DNA of 64,000 nt, taken from Planctomycetaceae bacterium. GTDB taxonomy: Bacteria; Planctomycetota; Planctomycetia; Pirellulales; Lacipirellulaceae. The notes beneath the pieces were generated by a model, which was given only the letters and a program-made list of their open reading frames with translations, had not been told where the DNA came from and did no database searches. Below are positions 20,252 through 49,743 of this stretch, piece after piece; position 1 is the stretch's first letter; each line of letters begins with the position of its first letter. The stretch is taken from the NCBI GenBank assembly GCA_003233055.1, contig QIKP01000011.1, positions 62,001 to 126,000 on the forward strand, written 5' to 3'. The position numbers were made by a program, and so were the translations under genes.

Positions 20252-20918
20252 GAACCACCCGCGGAATCCGACGCAAGAAAAACCACGAATCGGACGAATC
20301 ATCGCGAGCGATCAAGATTTGTTGGATTCATAAAATTCGTGGTTGCTATTTCCGACCGCGAACGACCCGCCCCTGTTTCTTTGCGCCTTGGCGTGAGGCT
20401 TACTCTCCAGGCGTTTGGGAGCCGGCAGCCGATTGTCTCACGCAAAGACGCGAAGACGCAAAGGAAGAAAAGAATTGGCCGCGGATAAGCCCAGATGAAC
20501 GCGGATATTCGGTGGGAGAACACTAATCAACGCTAATTTGATTAGCGAAGATTAGTGTTCCTCCCCTTGGCTCTTCTCACGCGAAGTCTCGATGCAACGA
20601 GGTAACCGTTCACAGAATCCGAGGCAGGGAAAACCACGAATTTCGACCGTGAACGACTCGCCCTTGTTTCTTTGCGTCTTGGCGCCTTTGCGTGAGGCTT
20701 ATTCTCCGGGCGTTGGGATCCGGGGATTTTTTAACGCAAAGGCGCGAAGACGCAAAGGAAGAAAGAAGGGGCCACAGAGAAGCGCATGGCTGGAGTTTGG
20801 GCCAAAACCAGCCACGGGTGTAGAAACAACAGGGCTGGAAGCCCGACCTACTGTGCCGGGAACGGTTACACCGAGTCACGTCGCGCTCGACCCGCCCTCT
20901 CGGTAAGAGGGAGGGACT
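20252..20918. repeat. palindromic repeat island 1 (667 bp, no gene)
   Basis: The stretch between the metal operon and nfo contains several stacked inverted repeats: AACCACGAAT/ATTCGTGGTT at 20281 and 20335; a TTTCTTTGCG-type arm at 20376-20397 paired with 20437-20470; a 20-bp arm hairpin at 20518-20560; and an outer GTAACCGTT/AACGGTTAC pair at 20602 and 20861 enclosing a second TTTCTTTGCG pair (20667-20696 with 20734-20764). A GGGCTGGAAGCCC hairpin lies at 20832-20844. Short open frames in it follow the repeats and are not genes. Motifs of the CTTTGCG and ACCACGAA kind are common in genomes of several environmental phyla. Confidence 0.75.
20518..20560. repeat. 43-bp hairpin, 20-bp arms with two mismatches
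   Basis: GAACACTAATCAACGCTAAT is followed by TTG and by a right arm that is its reverse complement at 18 of 20 positions. It is the strongest single stem in repeat island 1. Confidence 0.75.
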
Positions 20919-31426: not shown

Positions 31427-31533
31427 CCCTGGCAATCCAACCGGCGTGCGTGCCCCCCAAGGGGGATCGATAGGAGGGAAAATCACGCTAGACGATTCGC
31501 CTCGTTGCTATCTACAATCAAGGAGTGCAGACC

Positions 31534-32703
31534 ATGGGGAACGAGCACCTCCCGAGAAACCCAGCAGACCAACCGCAAGCCAGAACAGCATCCAAGATGG
31601 AAGACTCGACGACGATTCTCCAAGCCGCCAGGACGATCGGCTACGTGGAAGGGGAGCGAAGCGAAGAGGTGAAGGAGCTCTACGGCAGTTATTCTAGACT
31701 CACTCTTCAGGAAAAACTTGGTTGGACCGAGCATTTGCGGCTCAAGCGGCTGCTTGGGTCGGGAGGGCAAGGACTGGTCTTCTTGAGTGAGCGGCGCGGC
31801 TCCGACGGCTTTACCCTGCCTGTTGCGCTCAAGTTCTTTTCCCCGGAACGATTCGAGGACGTGCGGACCTACGAAGAGGCAATGAAGCGGATGGCGCAGG
31901 TCAATTGCCGGATCGCAAAAATCCAGCACGACAACCTGCTCGACGTTCAGAATTTTATCGAGCGGAACCGGATTCGCATCCTGGAGATGGAGTGGGTCGA
32001 TGGCTACGATCTGGAAAGCCTCCTCACTACGGCCATGCTCGAGCGAGCGCGAGGGCGGGTAAGTTCGAGTCGATGGGATTACATCAACAACGTGGTCGTC
32101 ACCCAAGGTCCGCTGCGGCCCCGATTGAAGGCAGGCATCGCGGTGGCAATTGTTCATGGGGTCCTCGCGGGGCTCGCGGCGCTCCACCGCGACGAAGTCG
32201 TCCATGGCGACATCAAACCTTCCAACATCATGGTCAAGCGGACCGGCCATCCGAAAATCATTGACATCGGTTCCGCCGTCGAGCTCGACAACTTGCCACC
32301 CCAGCGAACCTGCACTCCGCAGTACGTGGCACCAGAAATCCTCGATCGCGAGCATATCTCCCCACGATCCGATTTGGCGAGCGTCGGCTACGTGCTGGTC
32401 GAACTCCTCTCGGGCCGCCCGTTGTTTGCGGGGGCGACCAGCTTCAAGGAACTGATCAAGGCAAAGCGAACCCTTCCTCAACGGCTCGAAAAAATTCTGC
32501 CTGCCGAGGTGGCGGACAGCGAGCTCCTGATGACGATCTGCCAGCGACTGACGTCCCCCGACCCGATGCTCCGGTATGCGAGTGCCGAAGAGGCGCTGAC
32601 CGGTGCGGACGGGCTCTCCGAATTCCACCGGTCACTGATCCGAGGCGATCTGGCGAGTGAGTATGAAAACGAGATCCGGGTTTGGCTGGAAGAACTCGAC
32701 TGA
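31534..32703 (+). CDS. Hanks-type serine/threonine protein kinase
   Basis: The 389-residue cytosolic kinase has a glycine loop GSGGQGLVF, the ATP-binding Lys in VALKFFSPE, the catalytic loop HGDIKPSN near residue 224, the metal-binding Asp in IDIGSAV and the APE-like motif QYVAPEIL. The catalytic loop is HGD instead of HRD and the metal loop is DIG instead of DFG, both tolerated variants. There is no membrane helix or sensor domain. AAGGAG precedes ATG 31534 at a good distance, so I prefer it to the GTG at 31525. Confidence 0.9.
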   Translation: MGNEHLPRNPADQPQARTASKMEDSTTILQAARTIGYVEGERSEEVKELYGSYSRLTLQEKLGWTEHLRLKRLLGSGGQGLVFLSERRGSDGFTLPVALKFFSPERFEDVRTYEEAMKRMAQVNCRIAKIQHDNLLDVQNFIERNRIRILEMEWVDGYDLESLLTTAMLERARGRVSSSRWDYINNVVVTQGPLRPRLKAGIAVAIVHGVLAGLAALHRDEVVHGDIKPSNIMVKRTGHPKIIDIGSAVELDNLPPQRTCTPQYVAPEILDREHISPRSDLASVGYVLVELLSGRPLFAGATSFKELIKAKRTLPQRLEKILPAEVADSELLMTICQRLTSPDPMLRYASAEEALTGADGLSEFHRSLIRGDLASEYENEIRVWLEELD

Positions 32704-33342
32704 CGCATGGCTCAAGTGGTGAATCAATTTCTCCCAGGATGGCAGGAACGAGCTTGTTTTTAGGCTGCGGCTGCTAGCTCGGGCTTGCTGGCGTGAAAAT
32801 GGATTCTTCGAGGGAGCCCGTAACCGTTCACGGCCGGAAAAAAGGGAACCACGAATCGAACGAATCCGACGAATCACGGCAGACCAAGCTTGGTCGGGGA
32901 ACGGGCCCCGCAGCGGTTAAGGAAAAGACGAGAAAGATTGGCCGCAGATAATCGCAGATGCTTGGTTGGAGAAATGAAGCAGAAACTCCGGTTGCCCCCT
33001 TCGTCGCAAGATAAAACGAGGTCTCTTCTATCCGCACAAAATATCTGTGCTTATCTGTATCTGCGGCAATTCATAGGATTCGTTCGATTCGTCGGATTCG
33101 TGGTTCCTTCCTGCCTCGGCTTTCGTGAACGGTTACGTAGTTTGCCAACCGTTCCTTTGCGCCTTCGCGTCTTTGCGTCAGACAATTCCCGGCCCCGAAC
33201 GTCGAGAAAAAAAGCCACTCGCAAGCCTGTTCCTGCACTCATTTCTCCCTGCTGGCATTGACCGTCCCTCCACCAGATGGCACGCTAGGGGCTGCTACCG
33301 GTTGTCGGTTTCGCACCCTGCCCCTCCGAGAGGAATGGAATC
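32704..33342. repeat. palindromic repeat island 2 (nested inverted repeats, no gene)
   Basis: This 639-bp stretch holds a nested element at 32819-33137 (listed separately) and, downstream, one copy of the CTTTGCGCCTTCGCG-type motif at about 33158-33180 also seen in island 1. Open frames here follow the repeats and are rejected. Confidence 0.75.
32819..33137. repeat. 319-bp element of at least three nested inverted repeats
   Basis: The outer arms CGTAACCGTTCACG (32819-32832) and CGTGAACGGTTACG (33124-33137) are perfect reverse complements of 14 bp. Inside them, 32845-32876 pairs with 33076-33107 (GGAACCACGAATC arm, repeated GAACGAATC units). Inside those, GCCGCAGATA at 32941 pairs with TATCTGCGGC at 33058-33067. 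Together they can extrude a long cruciform or fold as a long RNA hairpin. The outer sequence recurs at 20602 in island 1, so this is a dispersed family. No coding capacity is seen. Confidence 0.85.
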
Positions 33343-34668
33343 ATGCGCGTCGTTTTCTTGCTAGCGTCGACCGCTGGGCTCTTGCCAGCGACTATTGGGC
33401 TTCTCCTAACCGTGGGGGGGCTGCCTAGTCTGACGGCCGTTGCCATCGCGCAAAGCGGCAGCCGCTACGATCCGATGCCCCGAAATGGCAGCCTTCCCAC
33501 ACCAGCTCACTCCGGTAATCACGACCACAACGATGCGGGCCACCCCCCAGCGGGCCGTAGCGCGACTCTCGATGGACGGGCCGATCGACAGGCCCATGGG
33601 CAGGAGAATCGCAGCACGTCCCGTGGCATGGCGGAACCGTCACGGCGCTCGGCGCAGCCCGCCGCGCGACAGCCCGCGTCTCCATTGAGCCGCCCCTATG
33701 GAGCAGCCGCAGCCACGCCCCCCACCACCTTGCGAGCTTCCGCCGGCACCGACTATGCCAATCGCCTGATGAAAGCGACGCTTACCGCCCAGTCGGGGAG
33801 CCGACTCACCGGATCCCCGATCGGATTGCCTGCCGTGGTGCGCTCGGCGCGCGACCGACAGGAGCAATCGCTGCGAATCAACGCCTACTGGGACCTTTGT
33901 AGCGCGGTAGCCGATTACTACCTGAGCCTCCATGAAGAGGGGGAACTCGAACGCCTTGCGGCACAATCGCCCCAGCTCTCCACGCCATTGCGGGCAGCGA
34001 TTTCCAAACTGAAGACGCGCCGCGACACGGCACTCACCGCCGCTCGCGCGACACAGCATCGCCTTGCTGCACTGATGCGCCAGAGCAACACCTCGCCGCC
34101 ATTGCCAGACGACCTACCTCATTGCGGAAGCTATCGCACGAAGTTTAGCCAGACATTTTCCGGGAACGGTCCGAAGGAAGCCTATGAGTTGCACCAACTT
34201 CTCCCCCTTCGCCATGCCGAGTTGCTAGGGGCCGCTCGTGCGGTTCAGCAGTCGGAGGATTGGTTCGGTCAGATTGTTCGCCGAGCGGGCACCGCCGAAG
34301 CGGCCGAAGGAGTGGTCAAGGCGCTCGAGCTCCATGCGCTCAACCGCCGGGCCTTCGTCCAGATTGCGCGCGACTACAACCGCCGCATCACCCGCTATAC
34401 CGAGCTGGCCCGTCCGGGAAAAGTGGGCTCCGACCGGCTTGTGGCGATGCTCATTAAGACCAATAGCAGGACAGCAACCAGAAACTCCAGGTCCTCTCCC
34501 CTACCGGGCCGCTCCTCCTCTTGGAACGCCCCTCCAGAGACCTTTCGAGACGCGCCACGTGACCTTGCCCCCCGTCTCGACGCGGAAGTCGTCCCAGCCG
34601 GCGCCATGATTGCCGAAAAGATGCCGCCGAGCGAGACCTCCGTGTTGCGAAAAGCAGTGGGCGGGTAA
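33343..34668 (+). CDS. secreted helical protein, weakly TolC-like
   Basis: A 441-residue protein with a signal peptide (residues 1 to about 32, ending AVAIAQ). The region 35-125 is low-complexity, rich in Arg, Gln, His, Ser and Pro. The remainder is predicted helical, with a YWDLCSAVADYYLS block and a C-terminal AFVQIARDYNRRITRYTELA block that faintly recall the helical hairpins of TolC-family outer-membrane factors, but the length is short and beta strands are not evident. I would not assign a function. GAGAGGAATGG upstream supports the start. Confidence 0.65.
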   Translation: MRVVFLLASTAGLLPATIGLLLTVGGLPSLTAVAIAQSGSRYDPMPRNGSLPTPAHSGNHDHNDAGHPPAGRSATLDGRADRQAHGQENRSTSRGMAEPSRRSAQPAARQPASPLSRPYGAAAATPPTTLRASAGTDYANRLMKATLTAQSGSRLTGSPIGLPAVVRSARDRQEQSLRINAYWDLCSAVADYYLSLHEEGELERLAAQSPQLSTPLRAAISKLKTRRDTALTAARATQHRLAALMRQSNTSPPLPDDLPHCGSYRTKFSQTFSGNGPKEAYELHQLLPLRHAELLGAARAVQQSEDWFGQIVRRAGTAEAAEGVVKALELHALNRRAFVQIARDYNRRITRYTELARPGKVGSDRLVAMLIKTNSRTATRNSRSSPLPGRSSSWNAPPETFRDAPRDLAPRLDAEVVPAGAMIAEKMPPSETSVLRKAVGG

Positions 34669-41695: not shown

Positions 41696-42247
41696 ATGTC
41701 GACAGAAGCAACCACGGACACCTTGATCGCCCAGCTTTACGCGGTAGACGGCAAGGCGGAGATCGTTGGCGGGAAAATCACAATTATGGGCCCAACCGGT
41801 GACATGCCAAGTAGTGCGGGTTTCGCCATTACAGTTAGCCTTTGCAATTTTTCCAAGATTCACGGCGGGCGCGCCTACACGGACAATGTGGCTTATGTCG
41901 TCGACCTGCCGCACCGAAAGTCGCTGAGCCCGGACTCCTCGTACTACACGGGCCCTCGCAGCCAAATGAAGTTTTTACCACAGGCACCCGACTTCGCCGC
42001 CGAAGTCCGTAGCGAGAACGACTACGGTTCCGCAGCCGAGCAGGCGATGACCGAAAAACGGGCGGACTACTTTGCCGCAGGCACCAAAGTGGTGTGGGAT
42101 GTCGACCTATTAAGCGACGACGCGGTCGTACGAGTCTATCGCAACGGCTCGACCGAGCCCGACGCCGTCTATTGCCGAGGTGAGTTGGCGGAATCCGAGC
42201 CCGCCGTGTCAGGCTGGACGATGCCGGTCGATGAATTATTTGAATAG
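41696..42247 (+). CDS. Uma2 family endonuclease-like protein (1)
   Basis: The 183-residue product matches the Uma2/DUF820 group: a PD-(D/E)xK-type core with PDFAAEVRSENDYGSA, KRADYFAAGTKVVWDVD and a C-terminal GVTF-free ending. These proteins are abundant in cyanobacteria and planctomycetes and have no settled role. It starts 29 bp after sufB with AGGAGGAG upstream. Its stop codon is the first three bases of the 90-bp repeat, so the gene and repeat may have arrived together. Confidence 0.8.
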   Translation: MSTEATTDTLIAQLYAVDGKAEIVGGKITIMGPTGDMPSSAGFAITVSLCNFSKIHGGRAYTDNVAYVVDLPHRKSLSPDSSYYTGPRSQMKFLPQAPDFAAEVRSENDYGSAAEQAMTEKRADYFAAGTKVVWDVDLLSDDAVVRVYRNGSTEPDAVYCRGELAESEPAVSGWTMPVDELFE

Positions 42248-42334
42248 AGCAGTGATCACTCGGATGTTCCGCTAAGGCAATCGTTTGACGCTGAAATAGC
42301 AGCGCCGTGACCGGAACATGCGTGTGCGGCTCGC
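42245..42334. repeat. 90-bp palindromic dispersed repeat, copy 1
   Basis: The sequence matches 49654-49743 at 89 of 90 positions (single difference T at 42286, G at 49695). It contains AGTGATCACT, an ATGTTCCG/CGGAACAT inverted pair and a CGCTG-N6-CAGCG hairpin, so it can fold well. It begins with the stop codon of the Uma2 gene and precedes sufD. Confidence 0.9.
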
Positions 42335-47888: not shown

Positions 47889-49508
<1,620 letters not shown>

Positions 49509-49653: not shown

Positions 49654-49743
49654 TAGAGCAGTGATCACTCGGATGTTCCGCTAAGGCAATCGTTGGACGC
49701 TGAAATAGCAGCGCCGTGACCGGAACATGCGTGTGCGGCTCGC
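49654..49743. repeat. 90-bp palindromic dispersed repeat, copy 2
   Basis: This copy is 89/90 identical to 42245-42334. It ends 26 bp before the first gene of the ExbB/ExbD operon, so it is close to, or within, the operon's promoter or leader. Confidence 0.9.

Follow-up and report, generated by a model that had tools for sequence, protein, structure and literature searches.

The window, a stretch of 64,000 nucleotides from the genome of a Planctomycetaceae bacterium (contig 3, bases 62001-126000; assembly of 2.78 Mb in 79 contigs, 90% complete), contains a protein-kinase gene (31525-32703) and a neighbouring gene at 33343, and the 639-bp intergenic gap between them holds a nested inverted repeat at 32742-33236. 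The features of this repeat, and those of a second region of the window called island 1, are as follows.

32727-32735, no strand: left copy of the direct repeat ATTTCTCCC, a putative 9-bp target-site duplication (5 of 6 paired copies have direct repeats at the equivalent position)
32742-32756, plus strand: left outermost inverted end (level T), GCAGGAACGAGCTTG, where the homology between copies starts
32819-32832, plus strand: left arm of level O, CGTAACCGTTCACG, the outer arm of the original prediction, supported by arm pairing and genome matches
32848-32874, plus strand: left CACGAAT word array, ACCACGAAT-cga-ACGAAT-ccg-ACGAAT, with the same grammar as around GxxExxY genes
32941-32959, plus strand: left CGCAGAT word array of the inner level, GCCGCAGAT-aat-CGCAGAT, a word that also brackets GxxExxY genes (for example at locus L415)
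33041-33067, minus strand: right array of the inner level, ATATCTGTG-CTTATCTGT-ATCTGCGGC
33078-33104, minus strand: right CACGAAT word array, ATTCGT-tcg-ATTCGT-cgg-ATTCGTGGT
33124-33137, minus strand: right arm of level O, CGTGAACGGTTACG
33154-33179, minus strand: CGCAAAG-type array, CCTTTGCG-CCTTCGCG-TCTTTGCG, outside level O and inside level T
33222-33236, minus strand: right outermost inverted end (level T), CAAGCCTGTTCCTGC
33241-33249, no strand: right copy of the direct repeat ATTTCTCCC
20282-20343, no strand: island 1, short gene-less CACGAAT hairpin
20522-20560, no strand: island 1, CACTAAT/CGCTAAT word hairpin, read by eye
20602-20869, no strand: island 1, another level O element, within which lie two CGCAAAG arrays and a single ACCACGAAT

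The original prediction described three nested arm pairs within 319 bp, and all three were found where it had placed them. The outer arms (32819-32832/33124-33137) matched at 14/14 positions, the middle arms (32845-32875/33077-33107) were 87% identical over 31 nt with a perfect 16-nt core, and the inner arms (32936-32950/33058-33072) were 87% identical over 15 nt. The proposed extent was too short, because copies elsewhere in the genome stayed homologous outwards beyond the 319-bp limits, up to a fourth arm pair (32742-32756/33222-33236). In several copies the homology began exactly at its left end (32742), and the 9-bp direct repeat borders this pair on both sides. The element thus has four levels and spans 495 bp. 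Nor are the middle and inner arms simple perfect stems: each is built from short words in an array, and the spacers of the two sides are out of register (CGA and CCG on the left; CCG and CGA on the right when read in reverse complement). The folding energy was far below that of shuffled sequences both as RNA (z -7.8) and as DNA (z -6.4), with 0/100 shuffles as low for either, and none of the Rfam 15 covariance models matched the window at its gathering score.

A comparison with related genomes showed that the element is an insertion between the protein-kinase gene and the next gene. The two genes are neighbours in at least 14 relatives, and in three same-genus genomes the first likely start codon lies well under 100 bp past the kinase stop, a gap that is approximate since the start codons are likely ones. 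Independently of start codons, the distance to a homologous residue was 464-665 bp shorter in these three genomes. The same gene pair is thus found in related genomes without the element.

The copies of the two outermost levels were counted by pattern and similarity searches of the genome. The level T ends have the sequence GGGTGCAGGAACGRGCTTG; the left end had 10 matches, and there were 6 paired copies, 5 of which were bordered by direct repeats (8, 9, 9, 10 and once 21 bp) located 3-6 nt outside GCAGG. Level T is short, multi-copy and bounded by terminal inverted repeats with a target-site duplication, as a MITE is, and the paired copies, with their inverted ends and direct repeats, make a MITE the best reading of it, one that brought the other levels of the element to this site. 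The nested word arrays inside it, in contrast, are not the terminal repeats of a known transposase. Among the loci read, no transposase-sized interior and no parent IS were found between paired level T ends. The edge of level O, GTAACCGTTCAC, gave 217 matches with at most one mismatch in the 2.78-Mb genome compared to 14 for a reversed control, and is therefore not random. The matches enclosed various interiors, and long copies elsewhere in the genome were 72-82% identical. The identical edge around differing inner modules, both at these loci and in island 1, bears out the proposal of a modular family. Arms outside palindromic pairs would, by the original prediction's own account, refute it, and the outcome was mixed: many arms were paired within 650 bp (about 30 pairings among the loci read), but single decayed arms were also common. 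A target-site duplication for level O was considered and rejected, as there was no excess over mispaired flanks and one clear 8-bp case (L013). Neither the level O arms nor the level T ends fit the words that make up the inner levels.

These words follow a common rule. The middle arms consist of CACGAAT words with variable bases between them, the inner arms of CGCAGAT words, and a CGCAAAG array adjoins; all three fit one heptamer, C-R-C-N-R-A-K, repeated about three times per arm. The motifs ACCACGAAT, GCCGCAGATA and CTTTGCG, which had been presented as separate entities, are variants of this one spaced-heptamer grammar. In the arrays the words are fixed and the spacers variable, with the words 9-10 bp apart, about one helical turn. 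The window holds six CRCNRAK triple arrays compared to a mean of 0.1 in shuffles, and a CACGAAT triple was present in 35/392 genomes of the phylum while the reversed pattern was found in none of them. Together with the folding of the element, these counts refute chance or a simple-sequence artefact as an explanation, to which we give next to no weight. As predicted, the motifs recur in many environmental bacteria: array matches came from many phyla, and by record title the CACGAAT triple was also found in Bacteroidetes, Verrucomicrobia, Chloroflexi, Acidobacteria, Spirochaetes, Nitrospiria and others. At the cross-phylum CACGAAT loci the nearest partner array faced inward in 73 cases and outward in 7. 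The loop was at most 150 bp in 63 of the 73 inward pairs, so most of these are gene-less hairpins. Near a match in a verrucomicrobial locus (L102, 6782-6809), the loop of a CACGAAT hairpin contains another hairpin of words (ACGGAG/ACAGAG), and nesting is therefore not peculiar to the present genome. CACGAAT triple arrays were also seen in 104 stretches of viral-catalogued contigs (L216-L295 and beyond), some of which may be host DNA.

The motifs had been said to lack a described function. A search with the motif sequences found nothing relevant in the open-access literature, and to that extent the statement stands; the arrays nevertheless bracket one gene family with high specificity. When the proteins encoded near the cross-phylum arrays were clustered, one small recurrent protein was found directly beside the arrays, namely GxxExxY (TIGR04256/PF13366). 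We gathered 101 PF13366 loci blind to their flanks, in order of search score, with 50 from genomes chosen for holding a CACGAAT array and 50 from a phylum set not so chosen; the sampled genes came from Planctomycetota and many other phyla. An inverted repeat scoring >28 across the flanks was present at 87/100 GxxExxY genes and at 0/183 positions shifted within the same loci, and the bracketing arms were CRCNRAK-type arrays close outside the gene. A stricter detector found CRCNRAK arrays on both sides of 73/99 GxxExxY genes, compared to 0/118 control positions, 0/28 S23 genes and 0/30 Y1 transposase genes. The CACGAAT word itself brackets GxxExxY at L166, L364, L389, L404 and L417. We therefore regard it as almost certain that the arrays are the ends of GxxExxY units.

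The two also occur together across genomes. Among 392 genomes of the phylum, PF13366 was found in 33/35 carriers of CACGAAT arrays and 151/357 others (Fisher p 6e-10), and in 120/153 carriers of CACNRAG arrays and 64/239 others (p 4e-24), both tests treating genomes as unrelated. Of 50 genomes from a wide range of phyla, selected solely because they carry a CACGAAT array, 45 likewise had PF13366. The remaining 33 of the 153 CACNRAG-array carriers had no PF13366 match (G346, G336, G347 and 30 others), and one PF13366-free carrier has an assembly rated 100% complete and 37 arrays. In all, 184/392 sampled Planctomycetota genomes, about half, hold the family, which also occurs in many other phyla. 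One locus in viral contigs (by a single peptide pattern) and 8 of 72,556 plasmid records suggest that GxxExxY is mainly chromosomal. The only PF13366 match of the present genome lies on contig 10, outside the window, and its words end in G (CGCAGAG/CGCGGAG) and are not CACGAAT. The CACGAAT arrays of the window are thus without a cognate gene in the assembly; this gene was lost, is missing from the 90% complete assembly, or was never present in the genome.

A rival explanation sees the element as one of the usual MITE or REP-type palindromes, mobilised by a RAYT or an IS transposase, with the word arrays as no more than its stems and GxxExxY as a passenger. The inverted ends and direct repeats of level T fit such an origin, the genome has four Y1 transposases, and RAYT-REP systems are known in Planctomycetes (PMC3733652). 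The 30 Y1 genes without arrays on both sides came, however, from array-rich genomes, and many Y1 genes bear GC-rich REP-like repeats of their own. A REP tag, GTAG or CGTC, was not found beside the palindromes, as level O begins with GTAACC and the word arrays with ACC or GCC. RAYT/IS200 was rejected as the driver, since the Y1 genes have other repeats. This explanation accounts for level T but not for the bracketing of 73-87% of the GxxExxY genes or for the covariation between word and protein described below, and we consider it unlikely. Two Y1 transposase genes of the present genome (L043 and L044, RAYT-like) are accompanied by GC-rich palindromes, GAGCCGGGTCG... and GCGAGCCGGGAGCG..., which are unrelated to the word arrays. 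The GxxExxY units do resemble REPtrons and TIRtrons (a RAYT with REP palindromes or long inverted repeats) in that a small gene is bracketed by inverted palindromes and in that many gene-less intergenic copies occur in many phyla. They differ in that the protein is PD-(D/E)XK nuclease-like instead of an HUH transposase, and in that the ends are spaced-heptamer arrays with no GTAG tag.

The word in the arrays covaries with the protein between them. Words end in G in 41/44 cases when the protein ends in ..NFN, and in T in 19/27 cases when it ends in NFG or NFA. On a protein tree built from few columns and with many weak forks, the last base of the word changed 3 times compared to 18.5 times with shuffled labels (0/500 as low), and the Mantel correlation between word and protein was 0.38. 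Units from one genome fell into different clades with matching words (in G491, L407 is T-type while L356 and L410 are G-type), and thus the word follows the protein and not the host. Co-inheritance of gene and arms explains this covariation as well as recognition of the word by the protein does.

The boundaries of the unit were revealed by pairs of related loci. L344 and L388, at different places in one genome, share 94.7% identity across 455 bp and are unrelated beyond that; the similarity stops 42 bp upstream of the gene and about 60 bp downstream of it, at the arrays or shortly outside them. L323/L331 and others showed the same pattern. L325/L329 and L328/L332 were, in contrast, alike over the whole 3.3 kb, as vertical inheritance predicts. 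Copies that are alike only between the arrays show that the gene and its arrays form a discrete unit of about 450 bp, and the median length of the GxxExxY units was 454 bp. The gene-bearing units had no target-site duplication at a consistent place, with a slight excess of 8-mers without a fixed offset, and so the chemistry of movement is not readable from them.

The lengths of these units recall the intervening sequences of 23S rRNA, and the arrays might act at the level of RNA, as long stems that are cut by RNase III or that end transcripts and are tolerated in the way such intervening sequences are, with GxxExxY as a co-opted resident. The window element folds strongly as RNA, some GxxExxY units run on into A-tract/T-tract stems resembling terminators, and RNase III excises intervening sequences that are about as long (428 nt, one ORF; PMC4990558). 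The S23 genes (PF05635, L422-L451), which belong to intervening sequences, are also bracketed by inverted arrays (21/29 compared to 2/87 controls). Yet the words are kept better than the pairing: when one arm of a unit was compared with the other, the words showed 95% identity and the spacers 66%, both figures being inflated by the selection of arms on alignment score. A stem function also requires neither a heptamer grammar shared across phyla nor a word tied to a nuclease clade. We consider a role at the RNA level rather doubtful, though less so than movement by an IS transposase or a RAYT. S23 elements and GxxExxY units are alike in size (about 430-450 bp), in their inverted ends and in carrying a single small ORF. 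The S23 protein, a four-helix bundle, is unrelated to GxxExxY, and the heptamers of its arrays stand in tandem, for example AGCAGAG or TGATTGC, without the CRCNRAK spacing, so that 0/28 share the GxxExxY grammar. S23 and its arrays form a second pairing of gene and array with a different grammar. The one S23 gene of the present genome (L428, contig 25:22917-23234) lies outside the window and has AGCAGAG tandem arrays.

GxxExxY is under purifying selection, with a dN/dS of 0.07-0.23 in unsaturated pairs, and its invariant residues include G..G.LE..Y as well as D and E.K. A structure predicted from five sequences reached a pLDDT of 90.6 and a pTM of 0.84, with the five models ranging from 46 to 91. 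Its best structural match was Cas4 SSO0001 (Z 10.4, rmsd 3.1 over 98 residues); matches below Z 8, among them the Hjc resolvase at 7.4, were not counted toward function. The model thus assigns GxxExxY to the PD-(D/E)XK fold and makes it nuclease-like, a fold that by itself says nothing on activity. With Cas4 and lambda-exonuclease-like PD-(D/E)XK proteins it shares the fold and the D-ExK residues, but no solved structure related to it by sequence was found and its nuclease activity is putative. No description of its function was found in the open-access literature, where the name GxxExxY occurs in two papers, each time in passing, and the family accessions add nothing on function.

The purifying selection, together with fixed words and variable spacers at about one helical turn, would also suit arrays that selection keeps at many loci as sites bound by a regulatory or chromosome-organising protein, with GxxExxY regulating or cutting there for the host. 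The patchy presence of the arrays (either type in 155/392 genomes of the phylum, with 1 to 485 copies per genome) and the copies that move as units suit mobile DNA better, and host binding sites appear improbable.

The window element is very probably composite, made up of derivatives of GxxExxY units that lack the gene. Its inverted CRCNRAK arrays have the leading CC on the outside, as in the units, and there is no gene between them, for which reason it is a gene-less derivative and not a full unit. In the model that we propose, the starting point would be the gene-bearing unit of about 450 bp, with inverted word-array ends around the gene of the PD-(D/E)XK protein GxxExxY. Gene-less copies of such ends would make up the CACGAAT arms of the middle level, the CGCAGAT arms of the inner level and the adjoining CGCAAAG array. 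GxxExxY would recognize its cognate array and cut it, probably when the array has been extruded as a hairpin or has folded into one as a single strand. The palindromes formed by the arrays would spread, preferring the loops of existing hairpins, and this preference would produce the nesting. The outer MITE, with its inverted ends and direct repeats of about 9 bp, would then have brought the nest to the site. Cutting, the chemistry of movement and the targeting of loops are steps that we infer from the arrangement of genes and arrays, and it is about as likely as not that the arrays are moved by the nuclease acting on them. The reading as a whole, namely nested gene-less GxxExxY derivatives that were carried by a MITE and whose arrays spread by means of the nuclease, is the one we favor, with some reserve.

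If so, a repeat grammar found across phyla and an orphan nuclease family would be joined into one testable system, GxxExxY would gain a role that can be tested, and there would be a route by which nested palindromes of this type may originate. Somewhat more tentatively, with the odds slightly against it, the GxxExxY units may form a separate class of mobile elements, in which a Cas4-like PD-(D/E)XK nuclease reads inverted arrays of a degenerate heptamer, with the clade setting the word, and which spread across distant phyla without a known transposase, leaving gene-less palindromes that nest within each other. The mobile element might then be of a new kind, and the nuclease a new one that reads sequence. 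By their description, the TAACTGA heptamer repeats of Beggiatoaceae (PMC4679880) are similar in being clustered intergenic direct 7-mer repeats, but they are mostly direct, without palindromic pairing, and no linked nuclease is described.

Two other repeats were observed in the window. A 90-bp repeat at 42245-42334 and 49654-49743 (99% identity), which is also found beside an IS200-like transposase in L041, is probably another small mobile family. At 49465-49508, a (TGAT)n run of at least 44 bases adjoins the end of a gene.
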